From the IMG/VR virus record IMGVR_UViG_3300021371_000072, positions 1 through 30,465 of that record: a stretch of DNA of 30,465 bases; one strand, given 5' to 3'. Both the position numbers and the translations under genes were made by a program. Source of the stretch: a virus. Under the pieces are notes generated by a model. That model was not told the DNA's origin. It was given only the letters and a program-made list of their open reading frames with translations, and made no database searches. Positions 7,005 to 30,465 of this stretch are shown in pieces (positions within the stretch are counted from its first letter, which is position 1; the number at the start of each line of letters is the position of its first letter).

Positions 7005-7036
7005 ATCAAATAAATTAATAAATAATCTATTATATA
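7005..7036 (+). promoter_or_regulatory. Late-promoter motif P3 (ATCAAA-N17-TATTATATA)
   Basis: ATCAAA at 7005-7010 and TCTATTATATA at 7026-7036, with TATTAT beginning exactly 17 nt after ATCAAA. The motif lies in a 50-nt gap between the tape measure and the protease module, 16 nt before the ATG at 7053. It is one of five copies in this genome, all ahead of structural units. Confidence 0.75.
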
Positions 7037-8330: not shown

Positions 8331-8362
8331 ATCAAACAAACAATAATTAATTCTATTATATA
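8331..8362 (+). promoter_or_regulatory. Late-promoter motif P4 (ATCAAA-N17-TATTATATA)
   Basis: ATCAAA at 8331-8336 and TTCTATTATATA at 8351-8362, with the same 17-nt spacer before TATTAT as P1, P3 and P5. It lies in the gap between the protease and scaffold genes, 12 nt before the scaffold ATG, so it can drive scaffold and capsid as a separate unit. Confidence 0.78.
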
Positions 8363-9964: not shown

Positions 9965-9989
9965 GGAGAGAGGGTTTTTCCCTCTTTCC
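9965..9989 (+). terminator. Hairpin after the capsid gene (terminator or attenuator)
   Basis: A 10-bp stem (9965-9974 with 9980-9989, one G-U pair) closed by a five-T loop, 13 nt after the capsid stop. The downstream tract is short on T (CCTTAACTTTAAA), so it may attenuate transcription or protect the 3' end of capsid mRNA rather than terminate fully. Confidence 0.65.
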
Positions 9990-10576: not shown

Positions 10577-10600
10577 ACTATTGTTTTCATATTTCTTAGA

Positions 10601-10627
10601 GGGCTACTTCGGTAGTCCTTTTTTTTT
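10601..10627 (+). terminator. Strong intrinsic terminator with UUCG tetraloop
   Basis: Stem GGGCTAC (10601-10607) with GTAGTCC (10612-10618), one G-U pair, a C(TTCG)G tetraloop, and a run of nine T (10619-10627). It ends the protease-scaffold-capsid-tube unit; a new late-promoter motif begins one base later. Confidence 0.93.
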
Positions 10628-10659
10628 ATCAAACAAAAAAGACTTTTTTCTATTATATA
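10628..10659 (+). promoter_or_regulatory. Late-promoter motif P5 (ATCAAA-N17-TATTATATA)
   Basis: ATCAAA at 10628-10633 directly abuts the T-run of the terminator; TTCTATTATATA lies at 10648-10659, with a 17-nt spacer to TATTAT. The ATG of the next gene is 14 nt downstream. A terminator immediately followed by this motif is good evidence that a new transcript starts here. Confidence 0.8.
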
Positions 10660-11433: not shown

Positions 11434-11598
11434 ATGAAGTTATCATTAGGAATATCTTTACCAACTAGCAATAAGGGTGCTACACCTATTCAAAGACAAG
11501 CTAATGCCTTTAAAGCAAGAGTTATTGCTGATGGTGGAGTATTTGAAGCTAAGGCTTGTTTGATAGACCAATTAAAAATATTAAATAATATAGCATGA
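11434..11598 (+). CDS. Small 54-aa protein preceding the fibre genes
   Basis: Short ORF: ATG three bases after the previous stop and TGA overlapping the next ATG (ATGA), so it fills an otherwise unexplained 164-nt gap with coding-like codons. The C-terminal half (FKARVIADGGVFEAKACLID) resembles a short segment (RVxADGGxxEAxxCL) that I have seen at the start of Bacteroidota phage structural proteins. It probably works with the fibre proteins that follow, perhaps as a small assembly or attachment peptide. The role is unknown. Confidence 0.65.
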   Translation: MKLSLGISLPTSNKGATPIQRQANAFKARVIADGGVFEAKACLIDQLKILNNIA

Positions 11599-14845: not shown

Positions 14846-14849
14846 TAAA

Positions 14850-15209
14850 ATGAATATATATAAATTACAATATACAGACAAAGCAACAGGAGATGCTGAC
14901 TTACTATCTAAAGGTACTTATGAAGTAGTAACTGAAGAAGGTGTTACTCAAGATGTTTACAGAAATGGTACACAAGCTATAGTTTACATAGGTAAGATAG
15001 TAGAGATACCTGCAACTTATGATGATGAAGGACACGAGATTACTCCTCCTGTTTATTATGATGGAGTATTCTACGACTTAATGACTACAGAAGAATTTGA
15101 CTTTGGAAATAATGAGATATTTCCAACAGATTGCGTACATTCGTTTGCAGGGTATGAGAAAAATGCTGAGGGTACTGACATTGATCCTGAAGAACTAGAA
15201 GAAATATAA
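14850..15209 (+). CDS. Conserved-type acidic phage protein next to portal
   Basis: Protein of 119 aa, acidic, especially at the C-terminus (NAEGTDIDPEELEEI). Visible blocks are YKLQYTDKATGDADLLSKG at the start and FPTDCVHSFAGYEKN near the end. I recall similar small proteins ahead of portal genes in Bacteroidota phages but know no function. It starts 4 nt after the second fibre gene and stops 3 nt before the portal ATG. A chaperone for the fibres or portal is possible but speculative. Confidence 0.5.
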   Translation: MNIYKLQYTDKATGDADLLSKGTYEVVTEEGVTQDVYRNGTQAIVYIGKIVEIPATYDDEGHEITPPVYYDGVFYDLMTTEEFDFGNNEIFPTDCVHSFAGYEKNAEGTDIDPEELEEI

Positions 15210-15212
15210 AAT

Positions 15213-17285: not shown

Positions 17286-17286
17286 T

Positions 17287-17865
17287 ATGGCATACGTTTT
17301 ATTTATATCAGAAGATAAACTAAAAGACAGTACAAGTATATATGGTTCAGTAGATAGTTCACTATTACTCCCATATGTACGACAAGCACAAAGACTGTAC
17401 TGCGAAACTAAGCTAGGCACAAAACTAACGCAGAAACTTAAAGACTTAATAGTAGCAGGTACAATAAATGATGTAGGTAATGAATACTATAAAGAATTAC
17501 TTAACGATTACATAGGAGATTATTTACCTAACATGAGTCTATACATGGCTATTCCATTTTTAAGATTTAAAATAGAAGCAGGGAATATATACTCTAAGAC
17601 ATCAGAAACTGGAGTAGCTTTAACAACTGCTGAATCACAACACATAAGAAGTGAGATACTTAACACAGGCGAGTATTTTATAGAGAGAATGATAGACTTT
17701 ATAAAAAACAATATTAGTCGTTTTCCTGAATATAATCTTAATTCTGGAAGTGATGTATCTCCTGATTCAAATGGTTTTTCATATCTAGGAATGAATTTAG
17801 AAAGACCAAAAGGACAAGGAGATAAGATAACACTAAGAGATTTTCTAACTCCTGATTTAACATAA
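17287..17865 (+). CDS. Head-tail connector (DUF6712-like)
   Basis: Protein of 192 aa. The pattern of an N-terminal LLPYVRQAQRLYCETKLGTK helix, then LTQKLKDL and the later YKELLNDYIGDYLPNMSLY, matches the DUF6712-like proteins found after portal genes in Bacteroidota phages, probably the adaptor between portal and tail. The helical first two thirds and extended C-terminus fit that fold. It begins one base after the portal stop and its stop overlaps the next small gene (TAATG), so it is translationally coupled to both. Confidence 0.7.
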   Translation: MAYVLFISEDKLKDSTSIYGSVDSSLLLPYVRQAQRLYCETKLGTKLTQKLKDLIVAGTINDVGNEYYKELLNDYIGDYLPNMSLYMAIPFLRFKIEAGNIYSKTSETGVALTTAESQHIRSEILNTGEYFIERMIDFIKNNISRFPEYNLNSGSDVSPDSNGFSYLGMNLERPKGQGDKITLRDFLTPDLT

Positions 17866-17978
17866 TGAAGAAAAGATATAAAGTAAAAGAAGTTAATAAG
17901 ACAAAACTAAAATCATATTTAAAAAATGCCAATACAAAAAGCAGCTCAGGACACAGCAGAAATACTAGCAGTAAATAG
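17865..17978 (+). CDS. Small basic protein (37 aa)
   Basis: ORF starting in a TAATG overlap with the connector stop and ending inside the next gene. The product is Lys/Arg-rich (KRYKVKEVNKTKLKSYLK) with a Ser-rich tail. The coupled start and the fact that it fills the 60-nt gap support expression. The product is too short to assign, and overlap with the downstream holin-like gene lowers confidence. Confidence 0.4.
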   Translation: MKKRYKVKEVNKTKLKSYLKNANTKSSSGHSRNTSSK

Positions 17979-18117
17979 CACTATACTTAGTATTACTACT
18001 TTTACAAATTTAGAACTAGCTTTAAAAATTGTTCTGCTAGTGGTATCAATTTTATATACGATTGATAAATGGTATAGTCAAAAAAAGAAGTACAATGAAA
18101 AAAAGAAAACTAAATAG
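17926..18117 (+). CDS. Holin-like small membrane protein
   Basis: Protein of 63 aa with one clear membrane segment (about residues 31-47, LALKIVLLVVSILYTID) after a weakly hydrophobic N-terminal helix, and a strongly basic C-terminus (KWYSQKKKYNEKKKTK). A single membrane helix plus a charged tail resembles T7-type class II holins. It lies about 100 nt before the M15 peptidase, so a role in lysis is likely. The family call is from topology and context only. Confidence 0.6.
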   Translation: MPIQKAAQDTAEILAVNSTILSITTFTNLELALKIVLLVVSILYTIDKWYSQKKKYNEKKKTK

Positions 18118-18220
18118 TACAAATCCTCGTTATCAAAAGTTAGAAGAAGTAAAAAAGACTAACAAGAAATTAATCAAAGAAATCAAAGGGGTAAAAATCT
18201 ACGCAATATTTAATATATAA
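18095..18220 (+). CDS. Small basic coiled protein (41 aa) in the lysis region
   Basis: ATG at 18095 overlaps the end of the holin-like gene by 23 nt; the stop is 3 nt before the peptidase start. The product is Lys-rich with a predicted helix (QKLEEVKKTNKKLIKEIKG). It accounts for the 106-nt gap between holin-like and peptidase genes. No homologue or function is recognised. Confidence 0.5.
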   Translation: MKKRKLNSTNPRYQKLEEVKKTNKKLIKEIKGVKIYAIFNI

Positions 18221-18223
18221 ATT

Positions 18224-18592
18224 TTGAAGTATTTTAAAATATCTGAATTTGACAGTCCTGATTTAGAGGATAGTGGTAAGAATATGGATAAAGTATTCTT
18301 AAAACTACTAGACAAAGCGAGAGATAGAGCAGGAGTACCATTTAAAATACTAAGTGGTTACAGAACAAAAGAACACAATTTAAAGGTAGGAGGTAGAGTA
18401 GGATCAAGTCATTGTAAAGGATTGGCTGTTGATATCTTTTTGCCTAAGGGTTCAAGAGAAAGGTTTTTAATCATAAATTCACTTTTAGAAGTTGGATTCA
18501 ACAGATTGGGTATAGCTTTTAACAAAGGATTTATACACGTTGATATGGATAGGAGTAAAGATGAAAATGTCATTTGGACATATAATTATTAA
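18224..18592 (+). CDS. Endolysin, M15-family peptidase
   Basis: Protein of 122 aa. The motifs SGYRTKEHN (44-52), SSHCKGLAVDI with His63 and Asp70, and FIHVDMD with His105 give the full zinc-binding set of M15 peptidases (D-Ala-D-Ala carboxypeptidase or L,D-endopeptidase type), which cut peptidoglycan cross-links at lysis. The length fits a catalytic domain alone; there is no wall-binding domain and no signal peptide, so it needs a holin to reach the periplasm. The start is TTG at 18224; no ATG is better placed, and upstream in-frame codons add no family residues. The neighbours are two holin-like proteins. Confidence 0.9.
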   Translation: MKYFKISEFDSPDLEDSGKNMDKVFLKLLDKARDRAGVPFKILSGYRTKEHNLKVGGRVGSSHCKGLAVDIFLPKGSRERFLIINSLLEVGFNRLGIAFNKGFIHVDMDRSKDENVIWTYNY

Positions 18593-19499: not shown

Positions 19500-19515
19500 T
19501 CAACACCTTACATAT

Positions 19516-19536
19516 ATTAACATTCTAATTGTTAAT
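19516..19536. promoter_or_regulatory. Operator-like inverted repeat upstream of the replication genes
   Basis: ATTAACA (19516-19522) and TGTTAAT (19530-19536) form a 7-bp inverted repeat with a 7-nt spacer. A further TGTTAAT lies at 19554-19560 and the palindrome TTAATTAA at 19568-19575, both between the two promoter elements. This could be a repressor or initiator binding cluster, or part of the origin; no repressor gene is evident. Confidence 0.35.
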
Positions 19537-19551
19537 AACTTATTTAATTAC

Positions 19552-19586
19552 TTTGTTAATTAGCGAGTTAATTAATTGTATATTTG
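19552..19586 (+). promoter_or_regulatory. Bacteroidota-type promoter for the replication genes
   Basis: TTTG at 19552-19555 and TATATTTG at 19579-19586, separated by 23 nt, match the Flavobacterium-type consensus (TTG, 17-23 nt, TANNTTTG) read by the host primary sigma factor. The start site would be near 19593, about 20 nt before the first replication-region gene. This contrasts with the five late motifs elsewhere. Confidence 0.7.
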
Positions 19587-19612
19587 TGCTATAATCAATA
19601 AATAATAATATT

Positions 19613-19831
19613 TTGAAAACACAGTATAGAGTAATTAACAGAGAAAACAGAAACGAATACACCTTAAATGCAGAAGAACTATCTAAGTTCTTTAAGAAAC
19701 AATTAATAAGAGATTATGCAATATCACGCATACCATCTAAAAAAGAAACTTGGTTAGAAGCATTAGGTTTGTCTTGTTTAGGTTTAGCTTTTATTATATG
19801 TATGACTAAAATTATAACTCAATGGATTTAA
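19613..19831 (+). CDS. Small membrane-anchored protein at head of early operon
   Basis: Protein of 72 aa: a charged N-terminal region (residues 1-45, with KTQYRVINRENRNEYTLN) then one membrane helix (about 50-68, LGLSCLGLAFIICMTKII). The start is TTG at 19613, the first plausible codon after the promoter. As the first gene expressed it may act on the host envelope, for instance to block superinfection, but nothing in the sequence proves that. No family is recognised. Confidence 0.6.
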   Translation: MKTQYRVINRENRNEYTLNAEELSKFFKKQLIRDYAISRIPSKKETWLEALGLSCLGLAFIICMTKIITQWI

Positions 19832-20076
19832 ACTATCAAGATTGGTATAATGGAACTTACCAAAATTATAATGATCCTAGATATAATATAAATACTCCTG
19901 AAAAAGAAAATTGTGTTATTTGCAATAGTGAAGATGAATGTGGTTGTGAAGAAGAATGGAGTAATAAAAGTAATTGCTGCGAAGCAAAGATGGACACAGA
20001 TTTAAAAATCTGTAGTAAGTGTAAAGAGCATTGTGAAAGTGCTTGGGAATATGATAATAATTTAATAAATAAATAA
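19822..20076 (+). CDS. Cys-rich putative zinc-binding protein
   Basis: Protein of 84 aa with cysteines at 31, 34, 40, 42, 52, 53, 64, 67 and 71 (CVIC, CGC, CC, CSKC and a final C). This could form two zinc ribbons. The N-terminus is Tyr/Asn-rich. It overlaps the preceding gene by 10 nt and ends 3 nt before the SSB-like gene. Binding of nucleic acid or protein is plausible but not established. Confidence 0.6.
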   Translation: MDLNYQDWYNGTYQNYNDPRYNINTPEKENCVICNSEDECGCEEEWSNKSNCCEAKMDTDLKICSKCKEHCESAWEYDNNLINK

Positions 20077-20078
20077 AT

Positions 20079-20543
20079 ATGAAAACGAGTAAAATCAAAA
20101 CTGTAGTTAGTATAAAACCACATCAAACAGAAAAATATGGTACAACTTTCTACCATAATTTAGAAATGGAAAATGGAGATAAGATTAACATAGGTAAAAA
20201 GAAAGAGCAAAAAGTAGGTTGGGAATTAACTTATGAAATTACAGAACAAGGACAACATGAGTATAATAAAGCTAGAGCAGTTGCACTTGAATCTTTTAAT
20301 AAATCTAATAACTATACTCCATCTAATTCTTCTAATGATGATAGACAATTACTTATTGTAAAACAGTCAAGTATAAAAGCAGCAGTTGAATTTGATAATC
20401 AATGTACTATTGAAGATTTGTTAAAAAATGCTGAAATAATTAAGGATTGGGTAATGGGTAATGATGTGCAAAAGAAAGTAGATAAAGTTGCTAAATCTTT
20501 TAACGATAAGTTTGAAGATGAATCTGATGACTTACCATTTTAA
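20079..20543 (+). CDS. Single-stranded DNA-binding-like protein
   Basis: Protein of 154 aa. Residues 7-55 have alternating strands fitting an OB-fold (TVVSIKPHQTEKYGTTFYHN, then WELTYEITEQ). A flexible Asn/Ser-rich linker (about 77-95) precedes a helical part, and the protein ends in an acidic tail with DDLPF. That ending is the hallmark of bacterial SSB C-termini, which recruit replication and repair enzymes. The tail therefore suggests that the protein coats ssDNA and recruits host partners. The OB-fold call is from pattern only. It sits directly upstream of the DnaA-like initiator. Confidence 0.6.
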   Translation: MKTSKIKTVVSIKPHQTEKYGTTFYHNLEMENGDKINIGKKKEQKVGWELTYEITEQGQHEYNKARAVALESFNKSNNYTPSNSSNDDRQLLIVKQSSIKAAVEFDNQCTIEDLLKNAEIIKDWVMGNDVQKKVDKVAKSFNDKFEDESDDLPF

Positions 20544-20545
20544 TT

Positions 20546-21061
20546 ATGACAGATAGAGAAAAATTTGAAACCATTTGCGACCTTACTACTCATACAGTAG
20601 GGTTGCAACAAGGTTCTTTAGCTTATAAGACTAGAAAGCAGGAGATATTAGTACCTAGAATGGTAGCTACTGTAATAGGTAGAATAAGTAAAGACATACA
20701 TCCTACTATAATTGCAGATATAATTAATAAGGATCGTACTTCTGTAATACATTATATGAAATATCACAAATCAAATTATGCAAGTTTTCCAGTTTATAGA
20801 GATACATTTAATAAAGTTTGGAAAGCATATAATGAACTAGAAAAAATAAAGATAGTATTTGCAGATAAAGAACAAATGATAAGACATTTATTAGATGCAG
20901 GTATTAAGATTGTTGCTAAACCACAAGTTAAGATTAAAGTATTGTGTGGTAAGTATAAATACTTAGTACATACTAACTATTTGGAATTTTCAAATAATAT
21001 TGATATTATTAAGAACTCATTAAAACATTATGATTACTCTATAGACATTATAACAATATGA
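20546..21061 (+). CDS. DnaA domain IV-like DNA-binding protein
   Basis: Protein of 171 aa. Residues about 18-72 follow the DnaA C-terminal DNA-binding pattern: a KTRKQEILVPRMVATVIGR helix, ADIINKDRTSVIHYMKYH as the recognition helix (compare the DHTTV signature, here DRTSV). No AAA+ domain is present, so it cannot act as a full initiator; it may bind origin-like boxes or compete with host DnaA. The C-terminal half (about 95-171) is uncharacterised. The start is the ATG after an A/T-rich leader; the stop overlaps the next ATG. The similarity is good in the helix-turn-helix only. Confidence 0.7.
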   Translation: MTDREKFETICDLTTHTVGLQQGSLAYKTRKQEILVPRMVATVIGRISKDIHPTIIADIINKDRTSVIHYMKYHKSNYASFPVYRDTFNKVWKAYNELEKIKIVFADKEQMIRHLLDAGIKIVAKPQVKIKVLCGKYKYLVHTNYLEFSNNIDIIKNSLKHYDYSIDIITI

Positions 21062-21675
21062 ACGAAACACCAAACTATTATGCAATAATACCTGCAAACG
21101 TAAGGTATGCTGATCTAAAACCTAATGCTAAACTTTTATACGGAGAGATAACTGCTTTAAGTAATAAACACGGATTCTGCTTTGCTTCTAACAAATACTT
21201 TGCAGAGTTATATAAAGTAAATAAAAATACTATTAGTTCTTGGATTTCTGATTTAAAAAATTACGGATTTATAACTGTAAAGATAGAACGTAATGTAAAT
21301 AACCAAATCACGAAAAGATGTATAGGTATTCTGAAAAAGATGGATAACCCTATACACGAAAAGCTGAAGTATAATAATACAAGTATTAATACTACAAGTA
21401 ATAATATATCTATAAAGGAAAAATTTGAAAATTTGGTTATGTTTTTTGATTATCCTAAAGAAATGAAATTAGACTTTATCAATTACTGGACAGAAAAAAG
21501 TTCTGATAGATTAAATGCTAAAATGAGGTATCAGAAACAAGCTACCTTTGATGTTAAGTTGCGACTGGATCGTTGGGCGAAAAATTCTGCTAAGTGGGAT
21601 AAACCAAAGAAAGCAGGTACATCTAAATTAGATGCACAGATAGATGAATGGCAAAAGGCAAAGAGTTTACTATGA
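21058..21675 (+). CDS. Winged-helix replication protein
   Basis: Protein of 205 aa. The N-terminal part (residues 1-100) is a winged helix: YYAIIPANVRYADLKPNAKL, FASNKYFAELYKVNKNTISS as the HTH, GFITVKIERNVN as the wing. This is the pattern of RepA/DnaD-like phage replication initiators. The C-terminal part holds FINYWTEKSSDRLNAKMRYQ and KLRLDRWAKN, a block seen in replication proteins of Bacteroidota mobile elements. It overlaps the DnaA-like gene by 4 nt. It probably binds the origin and recruits a host helicase. That role is inferred. Confidence 0.7.
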   Translation: MNETPNYYAIIPANVRYADLKPNAKLLYGEITALSNKHGFCFASNKYFAELYKVNKNTISSWISDLKNYGFITVKIERNVNNQITKRCIGILKKMDNPIHEKLKYNNTSINTTSNNISIKEKFENLVMFFDYPKEMKLDFINYWTEKSSDRLNAKMRYQKQATFDVKLRLDRWAKNSAKWDKPKKAGTSKLDAQIDEWQKAKSLL

Positions 21676-21875
21676 TAGATGAGTATAAGGAGAAACTATA
21701 CCTAGAAAAGTTATATAAAAAAAATACTATAGATTTGGATAACTATTTTAAGTATAGTGGTAAGTTAGAAGTAGGTAATAAATTTAAAAGAGTAACAGAG
21801 GAATATACTTATCAAGTAAGAACTTATATAAAAAATGATATGAGTAAGTATAAATTAAAAAACTATAGAAAATGA
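21672..21875 (+). CDS. Small charged hypothetical protein
   Basis: The start is placed at ATG 21672, overlapping the stop of the replication protein (ATGA), which gives 67 aa. An upstream in-frame ATG at 21648 would add eight residues but lies deep in the preceding gene. The product is Lys/Tyr/Glu-rich (MIDEYKEKLYLEKLYKKN) and helical, with no recognised family. The 4-nt overlaps on both sides support translation within the replication operon. Confidence 0.55.
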   Translation: MIDEYKEKLYLEKLYKKNTIDLDNYFKYSGKLEVGNKFKRVTEEYTYQVRTYIKNDMSKYKLKNYRK

Positions 21876-22234
21876 AAACACTACAAGAAGAAAACATTAA
21901 GGAACTAACAGAAAAAGTCTTAGACTTAGTAGCAAAGACATCAGTAGAGTTAGGACACAGAGCAGATGCTAAATCAATGGCTTCATTATCTAAAATATTT
22001 GCAGAGGACTTACAAAAAGAAAATAGATTTAGAAGAATGACATTCAATCAAATAGAGGATGCTTTTCACATAGGAGTTAGATACTCTGACTTTGATCCTT
22101 ACATAAACATTAGAACATTCTTTAAATTTATTATAAGTCATAAAAAGAAAATCAACGAAGCTATTTACAAAACAGAAACACTTAATCAAAAAAATGTAGA
22201 ATTTTATCAACCACCTTTAAAACAATTAAAATGA
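21872..22234 (+). CDS. Replication-module hypothetical protein
   Basis: Protein of 120 aa, helical and charged. The segment TFNQIEDAFHIGVRYSDFDP, then INIRTFFKFIISHKKK, resembles proteins found beside replication initiators in Bacteroidota phages and plasmids; the function is unknown to me. Coupled starts on both sides (ATGA) place it in the replication operon. A helicase-loader role would be consistent with the absence of any helicase gene but is speculative. Confidence 0.55.
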   Translation: MKTLQEENIKELTEKVLDLVAKTSVELGHRADAKSMASLSKIFAEDLQKENRFRRMTFNQIEDAFHIGVRYSDFDPYINIRTFFKFIISHKKKINEAIYKTETLNQKNVEFYQPPLKQLK

Positions 22235-22860
22235 AAATTTTAGAATTGTTTGCAGGTAGTAGGTCAATAGGTAAAGTAGCAGATGAATTAGGATATAAAG
22301 TTTTTTCTGTAGATATCAAAAATTTTGATAAGATAAATTTAGTAAAAGATATAGAATTTTTAAATGTAAAAGATATACCTTTTAAACCTGACATGATCTG
22401 GGCTAGTCCTCCTTGTACTACATATTCTATAGCAGCTATAAGTCATCATAGAGATATGGGGAGACCTAAAACAGATTTTGCTGCTAAAAGTGATAGATTA
22501 GTTTTAAATACTTTAAAATTAATTAAAGAATATAATTGTATATATTTTATAGAAAATCCACGAGGTTATCTAAGAAAAATGCATTTTATGTTAGGAATAC
22601 CAAAGACTACTATATGGTATTGTAAGTATGGATTTAAAAATGCTAAACCTACAGATATTTTTAGTAATCATATATATTCTTTATTTAATAATAATGGTTG
22701 GATACCTAGACCTAAATGTTATAATGGTAATATAAAATGTCATCACGAATTAGCACCTAGAGGATCAAAAACTGGAACACAAGGACTAAAAGGCAATTAC
22801 GAAAGAAGTAAGATACCTAAACAATTATGTGAAGAAATAATTAAATCAATAACAAAATGA
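22231..22860 (+). CDS. Short C5-cytosine methyltransferase-like protein 1
   Basis: Protein of 209 aa. Motif I is LELFAGSRSIG (4-14, cofactor binding), motif IV is WASPPCTTYS (57-66, with Cys62 as the candidate catalytic residue), and motif VI is FIENPRG (107-113). It is shorter than typical C5 methyltransferases (300 aa or more) and lacks an obvious target-recognition region, as do several phage versions. Methylating phage DNA would protect it from host restriction. A second enzyme with the same layout lies at 26004-26612. Activity is likely but not proven by motifs alone. Confidence 0.75.
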   Translation: MKILELFAGSRSIGKVADELGYKVFSVDIKNFDKINLVKDIEFLNVKDIPFKPDMIWASPPCTTYSIAAISHHRDMGRPKTDFAAKSDRLVLNTLKLIKEYNCIYFIENPRGYLRKMHFMLGIPKTTIWYCKYGFKNAKPTDIFSNHIYSLFNNNGWIPRPKCYNGNIKCHHELAPRGSKTGTQGLKGNYERSKIPKQLCEEIIKSITK

Positions 22861-23135
22861 AAACAATAACAATAAATGAAAATGAGATAAGTAGTTCTAT
22901 AGATGCAATCAAATGGCATTTAAAAAACTATGGACATATAACAAGTTTACAAGCTATAAAATTATATGGTGCTACACGACTAGCTGATATAATATATAAG
23001 TTAAAGAAACAAGGTTATACTATACATACAACTGATTTAGAATTTACTACTAGATTTGGTAGAAAAACAACAGTAGCTAAATACTTATACTTCAAACCAA
23101 AACCTCAGTTTGAACAGAAATTAATATGGGGTTAA
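22857..23135 (+). CDS. Helix-turn-helix protein (HTH_55-like)
   Basis: Protein of 92 aa. Residues about 14-75 (AIKWHLKNYGHITSLQAIKL, GATRLADIIYKLKKQGYTIH) fit the HTH_55-like family: a winged helix with LAD/RL contact residues and a short wing. It overlaps the methyltransferase gene by 4 nt. It is likely a DNA-binding regulator, perhaps of early genes. The target is unknown. Confidence 0.7.
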   Translation: MKTITINENEISSSIDAIKWHLKNYGHITSLQAIKLYGATRLADIIYKLKKQGYTIHTTDLEFTTRFGRKTTVAKYLYFKPKPQFEQKLIWG

Positions 23136-23156
23136 TAAATAATAATAAATAAATAT

Positions 23157-23354
23157 ATGAAAACTACAAAAATGTTCAAAATGTGCTTAGAAAGTGGAGA
23201 AGCTGAATTTAAACAAACTCCTGAATTTTATAACGAAGATCCTTTATTAAAATTAGATATTTTACAAGACTGGATAATTGCTCTACAAAATGCATATAAT
23301 AATACAATACCTAAATTTGAAAAAGATTTAGAAGAACGTGCAAAAGAAAATTAG
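23157..23354 (+). CDS. Small acidic hypothetical protein
   Basis: Protein of 65 aa, acidic, helical in its second half (LLKLDILQDWIIALQNAYNN). It follows a 21-nt AT-only spacer (AATAAATAATAATAAATAAA) and overlaps the NinG start by 17 nt. No family is recognised. Confidence 0.5.
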   Translation: MKTTKMFKMCLESGEAEFKQTPEFYNEDPLLKLDILQDWIIALQNAYNNTIPKFEKDLEERAKEN

Positions 23355-23745
23355 CAAACTTAAAAAAGAGTTAGATAGTTGGTTTTCTAAATACATTAGA
23401 CTAAGAGATGCTACAGATATGGGAGTTGCACAATGTTTTACTTGTGGTAAGATAGACCATTATAAAAAACTACAGAACGGACACTTTCAATCTCGTAGAC
23501 ATCACAACACAAGATGGGATGAAAAGAATTGTCAAGTACAATGTGTAAAGTGTAATATTTATTCTTCAGGAGAACAGTATAAATTCGGTATGTATTTAGA
23601 TGCAAAGTATGGATTAGGAACTGCTGAAGAACTAGAGTTTATGTCTAAGGTAAATGTAAAAATGATGCGTATAGATTATGTAGAAAAGATAAGTTATTAC
23701 AAAGACCTTGTTAATAAAATAAAAAAAGAAAAGAATATAGAATGA
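23338..23745 (+). CDS. ninG: NinG-like recombination nuclease
   Basis: Protein of 135 aa. After a helical N-terminus (ELDSWFSKYIRLRDA), zinc cysteines occur as CFTCG (33-37) and QCVKCN (68-73), with the HNH-like NGHFQSRRHH (47-56) between. This matches lambda NinG (Rap), which resolves branched recombination intermediates. The start is GTG at 23338; no upstream ATG is available in frame. It lies with other DNA-metabolism genes and a NinB-like gene about 1.9 kb downstream, so the nin pair is present but split. Confidence 0.85.
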   Translation: MQKKISKLKKELDSWFSKYIRLRDATDMGVAQCFTCGKIDHYKKLQNGHFQSRRHHNTRWDEKNCQVQCVKCNIYSSGEQYKFGMYLDAKYGLGTAEELEFMSKVNVKMMRIDYVEKISYYKDLVNKIKKEKNIE

Positions 23746-24122
23746 ATAATTTTCTATATTTGAATATGACCAAACCTATATTTGCAAATACCACACACCA
23801 AATAGTTGTTAATGATTATTTAAACTTAATGCTAACATTTGCAAAAGACATATCTACTAAAGCAAAGTTTGAAAATTTTAAAGAAGTTTTAGAATGTGTT
23901 TTAGAATATCACAACAGTTACGGAGAAGATGTAAATGGTGGTAACTGGAACGATTGGTTAATGATAATACCTATTAATACTTCTGTAATGGTTAATGGAT
24001 ATTTTGCAGGAATACAAAGTAAAGGCAATTTAAAAATAGTTAGGTCTTACAAAGTTTTGTTAGATAATGCATTAGAGGTTTTAGTTAATGATTTGCGAGA
24101 AATAGAATACAATAATGAATAA
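23742..24122 (+). CDS. Hypothetical protein in the recombination region
   Basis: Protein of 126 aa, mainly helical in the first half (LNLMLTFAKDISTKAKFENF) then mixed. No family is recognised. Two TATATTTG words occur near its start (23755-23762 and 23777-23784), and an internal ATG at 23766 (MTKP) could be an alternative start. It overlaps NinG by 4 nt and the sigma-like gene by 8 nt. Confidence 0.55.
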   Translation: MNNFLYLNMTKPIFANTTHQIVVNDYLNLMLTFAKDISTKAKFENFKEVLECVLEYHNSYGEDVNGGNWNDWLMIIPINTSVMVNGYFAGIQSKGNLKIVRSYKVLLDNALEVLVNDLREIEYNNE

Positions 24123-24678
24123 AGTTTATGAAGCAGTAGCAGATTGTAGAAAGACATTTATAGAAATGTCTTACACCTACTCGCAAGATATAAACGAAAT
24201 AGAAGAAGCAGTACAAGAGTGTCTAATGTATTTTTTGCAAATGAATCCTACAGTATTAAAAGACATATATGAGAAAGATGGGCAGAAAGGATTAATAAGA
24301 TATGGTGCAGTAGTATTAAGAAGAAGTTTTACATCAGTAAGAAGTCCTTATTATTATAAGTATAAGAAATACTACACTAACTTAGATGCACAAGCAAGTA
24401 CATTAACTTACGACATAACAGAAACTGGAGAAACATCTAATGAAAAGAATTTATATAACATACCTAATTCTGAAGAATATAAACAATGGCAAAAGCTCGA
24501 ACTTATTGATCAAGCTCTTGAAGAAATTTATTGGTACGATGCTTCAGTATTTAAGTTATACTACTACGAGGGTAACACATTAACAGGACTAGCAAAAAAG
24601 ACAGGCATAAGTAGAAACAGTCTGTTTACGACTATAGACAAAGTAAGAGAACAACTTAAAGAATTGTTAGATGAGTAA
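24115..24678 (+). CDS. Sigma-70-like factor, candidate late-gene activator
   Basis: Protein of 187 aa. Residues about 24-70 (SQDINEIEEAVQECLMYFLQ) fit sigma region 2, and residues 145-185 (LYYYEGNTLTGLAKKTGISR, NSLFTTIDKVREQLKELL) fit the region 4 helix-turn-helix that reads the -35 element. A Tyr/Lys-rich linker (about 78-90) separates them. Small two-domain factors of this size are ECF-like. Late structural units carry a shared ATCAAA / TATTATATA motif unlike the host promoter, so this protein is the obvious candidate to recognise it. That link is inferred. It overlaps the next gene by 8 nt and has no promoter motif of its own. Confidence 0.75.
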   Translation: MNKVYEAVADCRKTFIEMSYTYSQDINEIEEAVQECLMYFLQMNPTVLKDIYEKDGQKGLIRYGAVVLRRSFTSVRSPYYYKYKKYYTNLDAQASTLTYDITETGETSNEKNLYNIPNSEEYKQWQKLELIDQALEEIYWYDASVFKLYYYEGNTLTGLAKKTGISRNSLFTTIDKVREQLKELLDE

Positions 24679-25072
24679 CTTCTTTGTCAAAGATGAGGTG
24701 TATCAAGAACGTATAGCATTATGTAGGGAATGTGTATATTACTTTAAACCTACAGGTACTTGTAAGGTATGTCTTTGTTTTATGAAAGTAAAAGCTAGGA
24801 TAGGAGTAATGGAATGTCCACAGAAGTATTGGGGTAAGACAACAAAAGTAGAAAGACCTGATGACATACCACAAGAACTAATAGAAGAATGTTTTTTAAT
24901 TTGGGAAGATGTAAAGACAGGAGTAGCAAAAAACGTAACAGTAAAAAAGAAAATGATAGAATTATATAATACTATATATAATGCAAACTATAAAACTACA
25001 AGTAACTGTGGTTCTTGTTTAAATAGTTGCTATCACGGAATAAGACAAATAGTAGAAAAATATAAAACATAA
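24671..25072 (+). CDS. Cys-rich zinc-binding protein
   Basis: Protein of 133 aa with C18, C21, C31, C34, C36 and C49 (CRECVYYF, CKVCLCFMKV, ECPQKYW), plus C113, C116 and C120 (CGSCLNSC). The first group matches a small zinc-finger pattern of the DUF6171 type seen in phages. The central part (51-95) is helical with acidic residues. It is coupled to the sigma-like gene by an 8-nt overlap, so a partner role in transcription is possible but untested. Confidence 0.6.
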   Translation: MSNFFVKDEVYQERIALCRECVYYFKPTGTCKVCLCFMKVKARIGVMECPQKYWGKTTKVERPDDIPQELIEECFLIWEDVKTGVAKNVTVKKKMIELYNTIYNANYKTTSNCGSCLNSCYHGIRQIVEKYKT

Positions 25073-25075
25073 AAG

Positions 25076-25315
25076 ATGAAAAATAAGATACCTGATTATT
25101 ATATAGGAAAGAATTATAAATACGAAGCTAGAAAAGTAATATCAGATTGGGAACTAAACTGGAATGTAGGTAATGCAGTAACATACTTACTAAGAGCAAA
25201 CTTTAAGCATAATTCTCCTGAGGAATGTATAAAGAAAGCTATACACCATTTAGAGTTTGAGTTAGAGGAGTTAGATCAACAGAAGAAAAAAAATGTTAGA
25301 TTAAATCATATATAA
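25076..25315 (+). CDS. DUF3310-like protein
   Basis: Protein of 79 aa. KYEARKVISDWELNWNVGNA, VTYLLRANFK, and the final KKAIHHLEFELEELDQQ give the YExxxVIxxWxLxxxxGNAxxYLxRA pattern of DUF3310, common in phages near nucleotide-metabolism genes. The function is not established. Its stop lies inside the left arm of a long hairpin (25312-25371). Confidence 0.75.
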   Translation: MKNKIPDYYIGKNYKYEARKVISDWELNWNVGNAVTYLLRANFKHNSPEECIKKAIHHLEFELEELDQQKKKNVRLNHI

Positions 25316-25375
25316 AGGAGGGTAGGCATATTGCCATAATAATTATTAAATGTTTTTATACTCTCCTTTATTTTT
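25312..25375 (+). terminator. Long hairpin with internal stem-loop, likely terminator
   Basis: Left arm 25312-25324 pairs with right arm 25359-25371: 13 bp with one G-U pair. The 34-nt loop contains its own small hairpin (GGCA-TAT-TGCC, 25325-25335). TTTTT follows at 25371-25375. The large structured loop is unusual for a simple terminator, so a short structured RNA is also possible. Confidence 0.7.
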
Positions 25376-25387
25376 AAAACAAAAACT

Positions 25388-25624
25388 ATGTTAATATATC
25401 AATGTAATAAATGTGAAATACAAAAAGAACTAAGCAAAGTAACTATGAAAGTAATAGATGGTAAGGTTGTAAACTTAGGAACTGAGTGTTCAAACTGTGG
25501 CGAGTATATGCAAGAGATAGCTAAAGAGTTTAACGGCTTTCCTCAATTACGCAGAACAGAACCATCACTAAGTAAAAGACAAGATAGAATGTGGAAAGAC
25601 ACTAAAGAAAAACTAACAAGCTAA
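25388..25624 (+). CDS. Zinc-ribbon protein
   Basis: Protein of 78 aa with CNKC (6-9) and CSNCG (34-38) as a zinc ribbon, then a conserved-looking FPQLRRTEPSLSKRQD tail. Similar small proteins are frequent in Bacteroidota phages; the function is unknown. It is the first gene after the hairpin at 25312-25375, and its stop overlaps the NinB-like ATG. Confidence 0.65.
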   Translation: MLIYQCNKCEIQKELSKVTMKVIDGKVVNLGTECSNCGEYMQEIAKEFNGFPQLRRTEPSLSKRQDRMWKDTKEKLTS

Positions 25625-26007
25625 TGAAGTTTGTAATACACGATAACAAAGACAAGATGCAATTAGTAAACTATTTAAAAGATATAGAAAGTCCTTACAC
25701 AGTAGATGTAAAGAAACACAGAAACACAAGGTCTAACGTACAGAACAATTACTACTGGAAGTGTATAGTACAAGTATTAGCACAAGAGTTAGGTTACTTT
25801 AATGATGAGATGCACGACATACTAAGAGCAAAGTTTTTAAACGAGTGGGAGATGGTAGAGATAAACAATAAGAAGATAGGACTAAACAAGATAGTAAGTA
25901 CAACATCTCTAAACACAAAAGCATTTGAAGTATATGCAGACCAAATAAGAATATGGGCATTGTCTGATTTAGGGATAAGACTAATGCTACCAAATGAATA
26001 CAAATGA
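25624..26007 (+). CDS. ninB: NinB-like recombination mediator
   Basis: Protein of 127 aa. The pattern RNTRSNVQNNYYWKCIVQVL, MHDILRAKFLNEWE, TTSLNTKAFEVYADQIRIWA and LGIRLMLPNEYK follows lambda NinB (Orf), which binds ssDNA and helps load recombination proteins. It fits with the NinG-like gene upstream and an SSB-like protein. The stop overlaps the next methyltransferase start by 4 nt. Confidence 0.8.
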   Translation: MKFVIHDNKDKMQLVNYLKDIESPYTVDVKKHRNTRSNVQNNYYWKCIVQVLAQELGYFNDEMHDILRAKFLNEWEMVEINNKKIGLNKIVSTTSLNTKAFEVYADQIRIWALSDLGIRLMLPNEYK

Positions 26008-26612
26008 AGATATTAAATTTATACGCAGGAATAGGTGGTAATCGTAGCTTATGGGGTAATAAGCACGAAATAACATCCGTTGAACATAATGAAAGCATTT
26101 CTAAAATTTATCAAGATTTATATCCTAATGATAAAGTAATAGTAGCTGATGCACATTTATATTTACAAGATAACTTTAAAGACTATGATTTTATTTGGAG
26201 TAGTCCACCTTGCCCTTCACACTCAAGAATGAGATTTAAAGCATATTGTAATGGTAAAGGAAAGGCATTATTTCCTGATATGAAACTTTATGAAGAAATA
26301 CTTTTTTTACAACAATATACTAAAAATACTAATATTAAATATGTTGTAGAAAATGTCAAAGGTTGGTATAAGCCATTAGTTGAACCACAAAATATGGGTA
26401 GGCACTATATATGGTCTAATTTCAAAATACCAAATATTAAAATTAAAAGCAATTCTACAGGTAATAATAAAGGTATGACATTACAAAAGAAAATGCAACT
26501 TAAAGGTTATGATATAAAAGAATGGCATAACTACAAAGGAGATAAAAGAACTTTAATAAATAATTGCGTTGAAAAACAAATAGGAATAGAAATATTAAAT
26601 GCTATCAAATGA
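26004..26612 (+). CDS. Short C5-cytosine methyltransferase-like protein 2
   Basis: Protein of 202 aa. Motif I is LNLYAGIGGN (4-13), motif IV is WSSPPCPSHS (65-74, Cys70), and motif VI is VVENVKG (114-120). A GRHYIWSNF block (about 132-141) is in the place of the later structural motifs. It shares size and layout with the first copy but not flanking sequence (PPCPSHS against PPCTTYS), so the two may recognise different sites. The ATCAAA of late motif P1 lies inside its last codons. Confidence 0.75.
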   Translation: MKILNLYAGIGGNRSLWGNKHEITSVEHNESISKIYQDLYPNDKVIVADAHLYLQDNFKDYDFIWSSPPCPSHSRMRFKAYCNGKGKALFPDMKLYEEILFLQQYTKNTNIKYVVENVKGWYKPLVEPQNMGRHYIWSNFKIPNIKIKSNSTGNNKGMTLQKKMQLKGYDIKEWHNYKGDKRTLINNCVEKQIGIEILNAIK

Positions 26613-26635
26613 ATATCAATAATTTCTATTATATA
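26604..26635 (+). promoter_or_regulatory. Late-promoter motif P1 (ATCAAA-N17-TATTATATA)
   Basis: ATCAAA at 26604-26609 and TTCTATTATATA at 26624-26635, with a 17-nt spacer. It lies in the only gap before the terminase genes; the small terminase ATG is 32 nt downstream. A 14-codon frame (ATG 26609) passes through it but is probably incidental. Confidence 0.75.
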
Positions 26636-26667
26636 AAAGAATCAGTTAACTAATTTAAACTAATTAT

Positions 26668-26940
26668 ATGGATGGCAGAATAAACAATAAAGGTACAAAA
26701 GGAAACAAAGGTGGTAGACCATCTAAAGCAGAAGAACAAAAGCTAATAGAAAACCTTACACCTATGAACGCAGATGCTTTAAAGTCTTTACAGATAGGTC
26801 TAAAGAATAAAGAACAATGGGCAGTTAAATTATTCTTTGAGTACTTCTATGGTAAACCACAACAGAGAGTTGATGTTACGAGTAATAGCGAAACACTAAA
26901 CATACCTATAATAAACTTTGTTGAATCCGAAACTGAATAA
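26668..26940 (+). CDS. Terminase small subunit-like protein
   Basis: Protein of 90 aa. The GNKGGRPSKAEEQKLIENL start and the LFFEYFYGKPQQRV block match small terminase-like proteins found ahead of TerL in Bacteroidota phages. It would bind phage DNA and start packaging. It overlaps TerL by 23 nt, in a different frame. It is shorter than many small terminases, with no separate oligomerisation domain visible. Confidence 0.7.
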   Translation: MDGRINNKGTKGNKGGRPSKAEEQKLIENLTPMNADALKSLQIGLKNKEQWAVKLFFEYFYGKPQQRVDVTSNSETLNIPIINFVESETE

Positions 26941-28129
26941 AAAATATAGTGCATTATTTTCATCTAACTGTAGATACTATATAATTACAGGTGGTAGAGG
27001 ATCAGGTAAGTCCTATGCAGTTACAGTATTTCTAACATTACTTACAATGACACAAGGTATAAGAGTGTTGTTTACAAGATACACTATGGTATCTGCTCAC
27101 TTATCTATTATACCTGAGTTCTTAGAAAAGATAGGACTATTAGGATTTGATTCTATATTTAGCATTAACAAGTCAGAGGTAGTCAATACATCAACAAAGA
27201 GTGATATACTATTTAGAGGTATAAAGACATCATCAGGAAACCAAACTGCTTCTCTTAAGTCATTACAAGGCATATCGTGTTGGGTACTTGATGAAGCAGA
27301 AGAACTTATAGATGAAAATATATTTGACACTATAGACCTTAGTATAAGACAGAAAAGCATACAGAATAGAATTATACTTGTCTTAAATCCAGTAACAAAA
27401 GAACATTGGATATATAAACGATTCTTTGAGGAGAGAGGGGTTAGGGATGGTTTTAACGGCATTAAAGACAATGTCTGCTATATACACTCCACATACTTAG
27501 ATAATAAAGCTAACCTATCTAAAAGTTTCTTAGAAAGGATATATAGATTAAAAGACATTAACTTTAAAAAGTATCAACATAAGATTTTAGGAGGTTGGTT
27601 AGATAAAGCAGAGGGTGTAGTATTTGATAACTGGACAATAGGAGAATTTAATCCTGATAACTTACAGACATCTTGTGGAATGGACTTTGGTTTTTCTGTT
27701 GATCCTGATAGTCTTACTGAGGTTGCTATAGACAAAAAGAAAATGAAGATATATATCAAAGAGCATATATATCGTAATGGTTTAAAATCACACGAGTTAG
27801 CTAAGATAGTATTAGCAAAGGTAGAGAACAAACTAATTATAGCAGATAGTGCAGAACCTAGACTGATAGAAGATTTAAGACATTTAGGAGTAAACATAAA
27901 GCCAGTAAAGAAAGGAACTATAGAAAGTGGTGTAACTCGTATGCAAGATTATCAGTTAGTAGTTACTTCTGAATCAACAAACATAATTAAAGAGTTAAAC
28001 AACTATGTCTATGCAGATAAAGGAAGCAAGTTATATGTAGATAGTTATAACCACGCAATAGATGGTATTAGGTATAACGTAATATATCACTTAGACAATC
28101 CAAACGCAGGTAGGTATTTTGTTCAATAA
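26918..28129 (+). CDS. terL: Terminase large subunit
   Basis: Protein of 403 aa. Walker A is GGRGSGKS (25-32), Walker B is WVLDEAEE (122-129), and the coupling motif is VLNPVT (155-160). The nuclease residues are Asp256 in CGMDFGFS, Asp310 in IIADSAEP and Asp382 in HAIDGIRY, so ATPase motor and RNase H-like nuclease are both complete. It belongs to the Terminase_3 type. The start is TTG at 26918 (a second TTG follows at once); no ATG lies before Walker A in this frame. It cuts and pumps genomic DNA into the head through the portal. Confidence 0.93.
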   Translation: MLNPKLNKKYSALFSSNCRYYIITGGRGSGKSYAVTVFLTLLTMTQGIRVLFTRYTMVSAHLSIIPEFLEKIGLLGFDSIFSINKSEVVNTSTKSDILFRGIKTSSGNQTASLKSLQGISCWVLDEAEELIDENIFDTIDLSIRQKSIQNRIILVLNPVTKEHWIYKRFFEERGVRDGFNGIKDNVCYIHSTYLDNKANLSKSFLERIYRLKDINFKKYQHKILGGWLDKAEGVVFDNWTIGEFNPDNLQTSCGMDFGFSVDPDSLTEVAIDKKKMKIYIKEHIYRNGLKSHELAKIVLAKVENKLIIADSAEPRLIEDLRHLGVNIKPVKKGTIESGVTRMQDYQLVVTSESTNIIKELNNYVYADKGSKLYVDSYNHAIDGIRYNVIYHLDNPNAGRYFVQ

Positions 28130-28131
28130 GA

Positions 28132-28160
28132 AAAGGTGCAACTATGAAAGCTACACCTTT
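28132..28160 (+). terminator. Weak hairpin after terminase
   Basis: AAAGGTG (28132-28138) pairs with CACCTTT (28154-28160), with a 15-nt loop. No T-run follows, so termination would be partial. It lies just after TerL and ahead of late motif P2. A 20-codon frame from 28144 overlaps it but shows no coding features. Confidence 0.35.
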
Positions 28161-28202
28161 AACTAAACAAAAACTAATTGAAAACTCAGCAAATGTACGA
28201 TT

Positions 28203-28234
28203 TTAAACTAAATAACAATAAATTCTATTATATA
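28203..28234 (+). promoter_or_regulatory. Late-promoter motif P2 (degenerate -35, TATTATATA)
   Basis: TTCTATTATATA at 28223-28234 is identical to the other copies. The upstream element is degenerate (TTTAAA at 28202-28207, within one base of the expected place). The motif ends 2 nt before the ATG of the tail chaperone. With TATTAT at 28226-28231 the start site would fall on or near that ATG, which suggests a leaderless or nearly leaderless mRNA. Confidence 0.6.
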
Positions 28235-28236
28235 TT

Positions 28237-28881
28237 ATGCAGGTAAACATTAAGAAAGATGGTAAGCAAAACACTTACAATCTAATTAACAGTTGGGATG
28301 ATGTAACACTTGACAAATGGGCTAAACTTATAGATAGTAAAAGTAAGTCAAAGACCAAAGAAGCATTAGATACAATTAGCTTGTTATCTGATATACCTAG
28401 AAAACTCGTAAAAGAGTTGAGTATAAATGATGTATCTAATATCTTAAACAGAGTAGCTGCGTTGCAGAACAAAGCTAGTAGTAGGTTAAAAAGAATAATA
28501 AAGGTAGATGATGTAGAGTACGGCTTTCATCCTGATCTATCAGAAATTACTCTTGGAGAATATGCAGATATTGAAACCTACATACAAAACGGAATGGAAA
28601 AGAACTTAGCTAAGTTAATGGCAGTTCTTTACAGACCAGTAGTAGAGAAGAATGGTAAATACTATTCTATAGAGAAATATAATGGTAGTGGTGTACGGAT
28701 GAGAGCAGAGAAGTTTAAGAAGATGAAAGCAGCAGATGTAAATAGTTCATTGGTTTTTTTTTGGACTTTAGGCAACGAACTATCGACAATTTTGCCGTTG
28801 TATTTGATGGAACGGATGGAGGAAGTGAAACAATCACTACTGATGAAAAGTTCGCAACAAAGTGGTCTTGGTTCGGAGTGA
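28237..28881 (+). CDS. Tail assembly chaperone (gpG-like), with programmed -1 frameshift
   Basis: Protein of 214 aa in the main frame. It is helical and charged, with blocks LINSWDDVTLDKWAKLIDSK, FHPDLSEITLGEYADIETYI and LAKLMAVLYRPVVEKNGKYY, a pattern I associate with tail chaperones of Flavobacteriia phages. Codons 173-175 (GTT TTT TTT) carry a T TTT TTT heptamer at 28755-28761. A -1 slip there continues into the overlapping frame to 29006 and gives a 256-aa fusion. This matches lambda gpG/gpGT, where the longer form helps load the tail tube onto the tape measure. The main-frame tail after the slip site is 39 aa. Confidence 0.75.
   Translation: MQVNIKKDGKQNTYNLINSWDDVTLDKWAKLIDSKSKSKTKEALDTISLLSDIPRKLVKELSINDVSNILNRVAALQNKASSRLKRIIKVDDVEYGFHPDLSEITLGEYADIETYIQNGMEKNLAKLMAVLYRPVVEKNGKYYSIEKYNGSGVRMRAEKFKKMKAADVNSSLVFFWTLGNELSTILPLYLMERMEEVKQSLLMKSSQQSGLGSE
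28755..28800 (+). other. Candidate programmed -1 ribosomal frameshift site
   Basis: Slippery heptamer T TTT TTT at 28755-28761 in phase with the chaperone frame, inside a run of nine T (28754-28762). About 9-11 nt downstream, GGCAA (28771-28775) can pair with TTGCC (28792-28796), or CAACG (28773-28777) with CGTTG (28796-28800), either of which could stimulate slippage. The open -1 frame starts at exactly this point (TTG 28761). Confidence 0.75.
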
Positions 28882-29006
28882 TGTATAATTTGACAGGAGG
28901 TAGTATAGTAAACTTAGAGAGAATAACTAAATTAAGTTTATATGAATGTTTAACTTGGCTTACTTATGAGGTTGATTTAAACGAAACAAAAAAGGTTAAA
29001 AGATGA
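28761..29006 (+). CDS. Frameshift extension of tail chaperone (gpT-like part)
   Basis: Eighty-one codons in the -1 frame, overlapping the chaperone by 121 nt. It has no good start of its own; the first codon, TTG, lies in the slippery T-run. The segment KWSWFGVMYNLTGGSIVNLE and ITKLSLYECLTWLTYEVD looks like the second domain of tail chaperones (a Trp-rich helix followed by LxxCLxxLxYE). It is probably made only as a fusion with residues 1-175 of the chaperone. The stop overlaps the next ATG by 4 nt. Confidence 0.7.
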   Translation: MDFRQRTIDNFAVVFDGTDGGSETITTDEKFATKWSWFGVMYNLTGGSIVNLERITKLSLYECLTWLTYEVDLNETKKVKR

Positions 29007-29904: not shown

Positions 29905-30348
29905 ATGGCAGATTTAACAACAACCTTATCTGAATCAGTAACACTAAATGGTGCAGTAAGAGGTACAACAAACACAGTAACAACTACAGGAATTAATAAC
30001 GTATATGAAAGAATTGTAACTTGTACTATAGATGAAACAACACATCTAGCAACTTTTGATTCTGATTCTTTTGGTTCAGCAGTTCAGATAGATAAAGAAG
30101 ATGTTAGATATATTAGAGTAACTAATCTTGATGCTACTGACAGTTTAGAATTAGCAGTAGTTGGTGCAGCTACTAATTATCAAGTATTACTAAAAGCAGG
30201 TCAATCACATATACTATGTGCAGCAGAAGATGTTATGTTAGCAGAAGCTGATACATCTCCTAGCTTTGGCACTATGGCTGACTTAACAAGCATACAAGTA
30301 CACCCTGTTGCTACATTAGATGTAGAGATATTTGTAGCTAGTGTGTAA
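29905..30348 (+). CDS. Beta-rich virion structural protein
   Basis: Protein of 147 aa, nearly all predicted beta strands (SESVTLNGAVRGTTNTVTTT, DVRYIRVTNLDATDSLELAV, LTSIQVHPVATLDVEIFVAS), with no Cys cluster and no membrane segment. It lies 2 nt after the preceding gene and its stop overlaps the gp10-like start. A tail tube or tail-associated protein is possible; if this is the tube, the protein at 10010 would be something else. No named family is recognised. Confidence 0.5.
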   Translation: MADLTTTLSESVTLNGAVRGTTNTVTTTGINNVYERIVTCTIDETTHLATFDSDSFGSAVQIDKEDVRYIRVTNLDATDSLELAVVGAATNYQVLLKAGQSHILCAAEDVMLAEADTSPSFGTMADLTSIQVHPVATLDVEIFVASV

Positions 30349-30465
30349 TGATAGCATTAGAACGATACTTAAATAGTTTCGGTAAGAGTGTTGTCAATAA
30401 AGCTAAAGGAATACTAAAAAGAAAAAAAAAGGTAGTATCAGGTAAAATTCTTAATAGTATATCTT
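30321..30465. repeat. Terminal direct repeat, right copy (circular overlap)
   Basis: Copy of positions 1-145 with a single difference at 30447 (A instead of C). Joining the copies restores the TAATG coupling between the beta-rich structural protein and the gp10-like gene. Confidence 0.93.
30348..30465 (+). CDS. Partial second copy of the gp10-like gene start
   Basis: The first 39 codons of the gene at 28-549, present again because of the circular overlap. Codon 34 is ATT (Ile) here and CTT (Leu) in the left copy. It is not a separate gene. Confidence 0.9.
   Translation, partial: MIALERYLNSFGKSVVNKAKGILKRKKKVVSGKILNSIS

Follow-up and report, generated by a model that had tools for sequence, protein, structure and literature searches.

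Known phage sigma factors and late promoters

Phage sigma factors that direct late genes and have diverged together with their promoters are known from the phages phiEco32 and 7-11 (PMC8948821). The Salmonella phage 7-11 encodes the sigma factor SaPh711_gp47, with late promoters of the form GTAAtg-(16)-aCTA and transcription starts 6–9 bp from the aCTA element, i.e. 9–12 nt from its C; the closest homologues of SaPh711_gp47 include sigma24 of Winogradskyella, a flavobacterium (PMC8948821). In its relative phiEco32 the sigma has diverged, and another promoter occupies similar genome positions; the phiEco32 protein gp36, a sigma70-superfamily member directing middle and late genes, is without region 4 and uses the single-element promoter tAATGTAtA, which has no upstream element (PMC8948821).

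The DNA considered here, called the window, is the whole of virus record IMGVR_UViG_3300021371_000072, one strand of 30,465 bases from an uncultured marine phage. As in these systems, one motif precedes several late units and no early gene, and a sigma-like gene is encoded. The window resembles 7-11 in combining a small, putative phage sigma carrying region 4 with bipartite promoter-like elements before late genes; 7-11 differs in phage group, host phylum and motif, and the available part of its description reports no 12-nt rule to the ATG. With phiEco32 the window shares a candidate sigma of the sigma70 superfamily, but its elements are bipartite and its protein has a region-4-like helix-turn-helix (HTH).

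The closest cultured relatives by terminase (61%) are the Nonlabens phages P12024S and P12024L (Inhavirus), which encode a PF04542 sigma-region-2 protein (gp33/gp35) directly before the terminase unit and whose late genes are preceded by AAAACAAA...CGTTAATATA, 12 nt from the ATG. Their -10 word differs from that of the window and their sigma is too diverged for sequence-level comparison; their records label the sigma gene as hypothetical and mark no promoter. Small genes on the minus strand of P12024S point away from late promoters (L205:2700-3040, 5100-5420 and 24830-25210). Read on the opposite strand, the late upstream element includes the host-like TATATTTG, which suggests that early and late promoters overlap in this phage.

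On the host side, TAHHTTTG is the consensus of the Bacteroidota primary promoter (TTTG/TANNTTTG; PMC6847099), which is present before the early cluster of the window and absent from its late elements. The sigma-ECF promoters of Flavobacterium psychrophilum (SM6, PMC9723704) serve host stress genes and contain CGT, where the window clade has CTAT instead.

Probable late promoter elements of the window

The exact word TCTATTATATA occurs five times in the whole window, always on the + strand, and nowhere else (Table 1). The initial annotation had located each copy correctly, had placed the word always 2–32 nt before a virion gene, which the measured distances bear out, and had seen no copy in the replication region, where exact search finds none. 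The longer word TTCTATTATATA is present in four of the five elements, and the bipartite form ATCAAA-N15-TCTATTATATA is exact in P1–P4 at the spacing first proposed; in P5 the upstream half is replaced by TTAAAC, with three mismatches. The TAAAC variant of P5 is kept before the same gene in relatives, where a counterpart of P4 also precedes the terminase unit.

In Markov shuffles of order 1–3 the exact 11-mer appears 0.17–0.23 times per genome on average (at most 3 in 300 shuffles, against five observed) and the bipartite form never (four observed). A position weight matrix (PWM) scored against shuffled sequence, a check suggested with the initial annotation, gives 24.9–30.6 for the five elements and 11.9 for the next-best window site; the best shuffle score averages 11.5 and reaches 19.4. 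The 11-mer alone with one mismatch is only mildly in excess (9 observed, 4.6 by chance), so the strength of the motif lies in its exact recurrence, its fixed spacing and its location ahead of genes. The spacers between the halves are unlike one another, and the five elements are therefore not a recent duplication of a single block. Confidence that they represent a real promoter-like element is very high.

Table 1. Positions of the predicted promoters and of the genes and hairpins around them in the window.
Feature	Position	Strand	Description
Predicted late promoter P1	7005..7036	+	ATCAAA-N15-TCTATTATATA, word at 7026-7036; ends 16 nt 5' of ATG of ORF 7053 (117 aa), then head-maturation protease
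Head-maturation protease	7408	+	Profile search
Predicted late promoter P2	8331..8362	+	Word at 8352-8362; ends 12 nt 5' of ATG of ORF 8375 (216 aa, scaffold-like position), then ORF 9037 (capsid position)
Terminator-like hairpin	9965..9989	+	After capsid-position gene
Terminator-like hairpin	10598..10621	+	T-run adjoins upstream element of P3
Predicted late promoter P3	10628..10659	+	Word at 10649-10659; ends 14 nt 5' of ATG of ORF 10674; must also serve tail, portal and endolysin genes
Tail proteins	11595, 13241	+	Profile search
Portal	15213	+	Profile search
Endolysin	18224	+	Profile search
Host-type -7 element TATATTTG (TAHHTTTG)	19579..19586	+	Gap before early cluster
Early/replication cluster	19613..26612	+	Co-directional; genes mostly overlapping or close-set
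Replication initiation	21058	+	Early cluster; profile search
NinG	23338	+	Early cluster; profile search
Putative ECF-like sigma factor, 187 aa	24115..24678	+	Early cluster; sigma2-like domain ~1-74, disordered linker, sigma4-like HTH ~119-187
NinB	25624	+	Early cluster; profile search
C5-methylase-like	26004	+	Early cluster; profile search
Predicted late promoter P4	26604..26635	+	Word at 26625-26635; ends 32 nt 5' of ATG of ORF 26668 (90 aa), then terminase large subunit
Terminase large subunit	26918	+	Profile search
Predicted late promoter P5	28203..28234	+	TTAAAC variant upstream element; word at 28224-28234; ends 2 nt 5' of ATG of ORF 28237

The elements precede 26668, 28237, 7053, 8375 and 10674, the heads of the terminase, tail-side, protease, capsid-side and tail/portal/lysis groups; all point into virion gene groups and none lies in the early cluster, in keeping with the dedicated late promoter first proposed, and there is little doubt, judged from sequence and position, that they act as late promoters. 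The same promoters stand ahead of the same gene groups in all 10 relatives examined in full, the comparison with related phages that had been suggested. The wording that every structural transcription unit is marked went too far: the genes at 11595-18592 (portal, tail fibre and lysis) are without an element of their own, and must be read through from 10648. The description of ATCAAA and TATTAT as an ideal -35/-10 pair stands for the spacing, but an ECF-type register fits rather than a sigma70 one: compared with related clades, the window shows CAAA or TAAAC followed by C-T-A-T where relatives show C-G-T-T or C-G-T-A.

The window ends repeat (1-146 equals 30320-30465 with one mismatch), so that the record, although not flagged as complete, represents all or nearly all of a circular or circularly permuted map of ~30.3 kb; all genes used in the analysis are on the + strand. 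The late gene 28237-28881 contains a nine-T run at 28753-28761, after which the -1 frame is open for 80 codons (ORF 28761-29006); 22 of 23 relatives, with identities as low as 49%, keep a T9 or T10 run at this position, which is probably a programmed -1 frameshift site of the tail-assembly-chaperone kind. The genes 22231-22860 and 26004-26612, the latter matching C5-cytosine methylases, begin alike (MKILELFAGSRS, MKILNLYAGIGG).

A putative host-type promoter before the early cluster

The initial annotation had judged that the elements do not fit the Bacteroidota consensus; that consensus occurs instead ahead of the early cluster. The -7 element TANNTTTG has no + strand match in the five late gaps and one in the early gap 19500-19612, and of all intergenic gaps tested just this one has a TAHHTTTG on the + strand, as TATATTTG at 19579. 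In most relatives TAHHTTTG, mostly as TATATTTG, follows the homologous upstream gene, and the copy at 19579 fits a putative early promoter for the host primary sigma. A sigma70-type promoter scan of the window gave matches at or below shuffle level and is thus uninformative.

The sigma-like protein

ECF (group 4) sigma factors consist of sigma2 and sigma4 domains joined by a flexible linker, in ~150–200 aa, and their promoters combine an AAC-like -35 with a CGT-like -10 element ~16–17 nt apart. The product of 24115-24678, a gene overlapping its neighbours within the early cluster, has this architecture, its 187 aa holding helical domains at 1-74 and 119-187. The promoters of the window clade read AA[AC]-N16-CTAT; those of clades C, D and E pair CGTT or CGTA with an A-rich CAAA/ACA element.

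Of the 34 family members, 33 match Sigma70_r4 (PF04545), with E 3.5e-4 at best, and the window protein gives E ~0.02 (0.022), below the curated cut-off; Pfam sigma70 region 2 is matched weakly, by 2 of 34 members of the window clade. The AlphaFold model, built on an alignment of 34 relatives, has two helical domains and a linker of pLDDT <50 (pTM 0.42). All of the top 50 PDB fold matches listed are sigma factors or sigma-containing complexes, led by ECF sigmas matched over the full length (SigL, SigE, RpoE; best E 0.004); none of the matches listed has E <0.001, modest values that are to be expected where a flexible linker joins two domains. Named matches to viral models include RpoE/sigma24 homologues and the ECF sigma of phage GAP52, and ECF sigmas again match first when the clade C sigma is modelled separately.

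A tblastn search of the window sigma against 50,697 phage records gave no match, and thus no cultured relative in that set has a close form of it; the clade C and clade D sigmas gave none in the same records either. Profile searches that covered the six largest ORFs and part of the small ones matched no RNA polymerase family of the phage's own, and a single-subunit phage RNA polymerase was discarded as the reader of the elements within that scope. One record (G004) holds two unlike sigma copies, L212:701-1252 and L213:9145-9708, 57% and 58% identical to that of the window. A scan of genome contigs returned one locus (L204), an 83% identical sigma on the MAG contig PAPR01000004.1 named Pseudooceanicola, which is probably phage DNA placed in the bin of a wrong host.

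Association of the motif with the sigma gene

A scan of IMG/VR by motif alone returned at least 119 stretches and 26 records, and 45 of 119 loci among the matches listed have two or three full motifs; the backward motif, as control, returned 35 in all with one motif each. Among the matches listed, 141 of 165 motif copies lie ≤45 nt from a start codon (8/35 in the backward control). The sigma gene is present in all 11 motif-bearing records of 27–33 kb and in 0 of 22 backward-motif records. The records G001, G005 and G011 (73, 47 and 37 kb), with one motif each and no sigma, look like chance matches and were set aside.

In the opposite direction, 58 loci were picked by the sigma gene alone and 2.5 kb of downstream sequence was searched; the exact 12-mer is present in 50 (0.09% in shuffles), the 12-mer with at most one mismatch in 55 (4% in shuffles) and the backward word in none of the 58. 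As these phages are related, co-occurrence with the motif is expected of any core gene and does not single out the sigma gene; it is singled out by its protein class and by the changed motif in related sigma clades. A perfectly palindromic promoter, TTCTATTATATAATAGAA, stands before the terminase unit in seven loci (L015, L027, L028, L030, L041, L045 and L052), and being a perfect palindrome could fire both ways.

Sigma clades and their -10 words

Clade A' sigmas, 46–51% identical to that of the window, go with the same motif as the window's. At the matching position the word is ACGTTATATAA in clade C, TCGTACATATA in clade D and CGTTAATATA in clade E, which comprises P12024S, P12024L and their relatives. 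Counts of words before start codons are diagonal, with the A word in A genomes only, the C word in C and the D word in D; the E word, which is shorter, precedes genes in E and in addition 3 genes in A loci and 11 in C loci, at its chance level by the backward control and in no case at the 12-nt register. A scan by the C motif alone found a clade-C-type sigma in 12 of 15 records, and these sigmas match the window-family profile with E 1e-11 to 1e-15, from which the A and C sigmas are homologous. Profile comparison of the A and E sigmas, both alignments being shallow, gives a probability of 4.8%, which is not significant, so homology between these two rests on architecture and position; the region 2 profile is above cut-off in clade E (E 1.4e-5 and 1.3e-8).

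Clade B (45% identical) offers weak evidence: manual inspection gave two candidate sites whose geometry matches, CCTTTTTATA and CCTTTCTATT, and a guessed word, TTTTTATAG, did not hold; no motif was found for clade F. A home-made EM motif finder brought out the D word and recovered the motifs of C and E at scores higher than in shuffles; on clade A it missed the known motif (window log-likelihood ratio, LLR, 34.8, within the shuffle range of 27–37), which makes its null results worthless, and all clade motifs were checked by exact counts with backward controls. CGT is kept in the -10 words of C, D and E and not in A and B, whose sigmas share a longer stretch, rich in aromatic residues, behind the first sigma2 helices; the correlation of CGT loss with this stretch is suggestive only.

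Distance to the start codon

Measured between the first C of the -10 word and the A of the ATG, 12 nt is the commonest distance in every clade with enough sites: in A it holds for 41 of 65 distinct contexts, in C for 7/11 (87/129 in a larger set partly selected for 12 nt), in D for 2/2 and 3/4, and in E for 13/17. In the window this distance, from the C of CTAT, is found only at 28237, one site of five. Taken with the start spacing of 7-11, it predicts transcription starts at or next to the AUG at 12-nt sites, where messages are probably leaderless; the four other late promoters of the window would give leaders of ~10–30 nt. Such hosts rarely have leaderless mRNAs, which make up 5.5% in F. psychrophilum (PMC9723704), and leaders exceed 10 nt in 87% of predicted transcripts in F. 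johnsoniae (PMC6847099).

Proposed mechanism and alternatives

Very likely, the five elements are late promoters read by the host core polymerase with the ECF-like sigma encoded at 24115-24678. The host sigma-A holoenzyme would start early transcription at TATATTTG (19579) and read the early cluster including the sigma gene. The phage sigma would then bind host core; going by protein class and promoter geometry, its sigma4 HTH would read the A-rich upstream element, ATCAAATAAA or TTAAACTAAA, and its sigma2 domain would read and melt TTCTATTATATA. Transcription would then start before the terminase, tail, protease, capsid and tail/portal/lysis groups; at genes 12 nt from their element, such as 28237, it would begin at or next to the AUG and leave the mRNA leaderless or nearly so.

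Flavobacteria have several ECF sigmas, and F. psychrophilum has a promoter class with a CGT -10 box (PMC9723704) like the phage motifs of C, D and E, so the host polymerase could read the elements with a host alternative (ECF) sigma, the phage protein being accessory or unrelated; this is considered unlikely, as the window word CTATTATATA is without CGT, the motifs shift from one phage sigma clade to the next, and every near-full-length motif-bearing record tested has the sigma-like gene. Slightly less probable is that the elements are operators for a phage activator recruiting the sigma-A holoenzyme to late genes. Many phages make the late switch by an activator, and the early cluster encodes other small uncharacterised proteins, e.g. 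that at 20546 with a DnaA-like C-terminal domain; yet the conserved word occupies the -10 position relative to the predicted start, modally 12 nt from the ATG, in place of the host -7 box, which would remain under an activator, and TANNTTTG is missing from the + strand of the five late gaps.

The nearness of the elements to start codons could also indicate a translation enhancer or a packaging or recombination site, acting in mRNA or DNA and not in transcription initiation; this is very improbable, since the two halves keep a fixed spacing while their offset from the ATG ranges from 2 to 35 nt or more, some copies would, with starts where predicted, not be transcribed beyond their first half, and the elements are always co-directional with late genes. 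Chance or composition is next to inconceivable as the source: the genome is AT-rich, the word is AT-only save one C and one-mismatch counts are mildly raised, but the gap in PWM score (24.9 vs 11.9), the shuffles and the backward-motif control refute it, and the motif is conserved across phages whose sigma proteins are 46–60% identical.

Significance for Bacteroidota phages

No earlier description of sigma/late-promoter pairs in Bacteroidota phages was found in the open-access library searched; as far as the searches go, what is new is a large, mostly uncultured Bacteroidota phage group with several matched pairs, the loss of CGT from the -10 word of one clade, and the constant spacing to the start codon. 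A wider reading, which may prove right or wrong with about equal ease, is that in a widespread group of Bacteroidota phages the late genes are run by an ECF-like sigma family in which sigma and -10 word have changed together time and again; the window lineage, with a remodelled region 2 (RYGAVVLRRSxTS...YYYKYKKYY), would have left the ECF CGT core for CTATTATATA, and the promoter would be tied to the start codon in all lineages, many late mRNAs being leaderless in hosts that seldom have such mRNAs.

The early-to-late switch is largely undescribed in phages of Bacteroidota, which are among the commonest marine bacteria, and the library searched yielded no paper on it. Since the sigma gene and the motif can each be found from the other, early and late genes could be annotated in many uncultured phages, and the matched pairs form a data set for learning which ECF sigma residues choose the -10 word. 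Several orthogonal AT-rich promoters might serve as Bacteroidota expression tools, and the 12-nt rule predicts leaderless translation in hosts without Shine-Dalgarno sequences.
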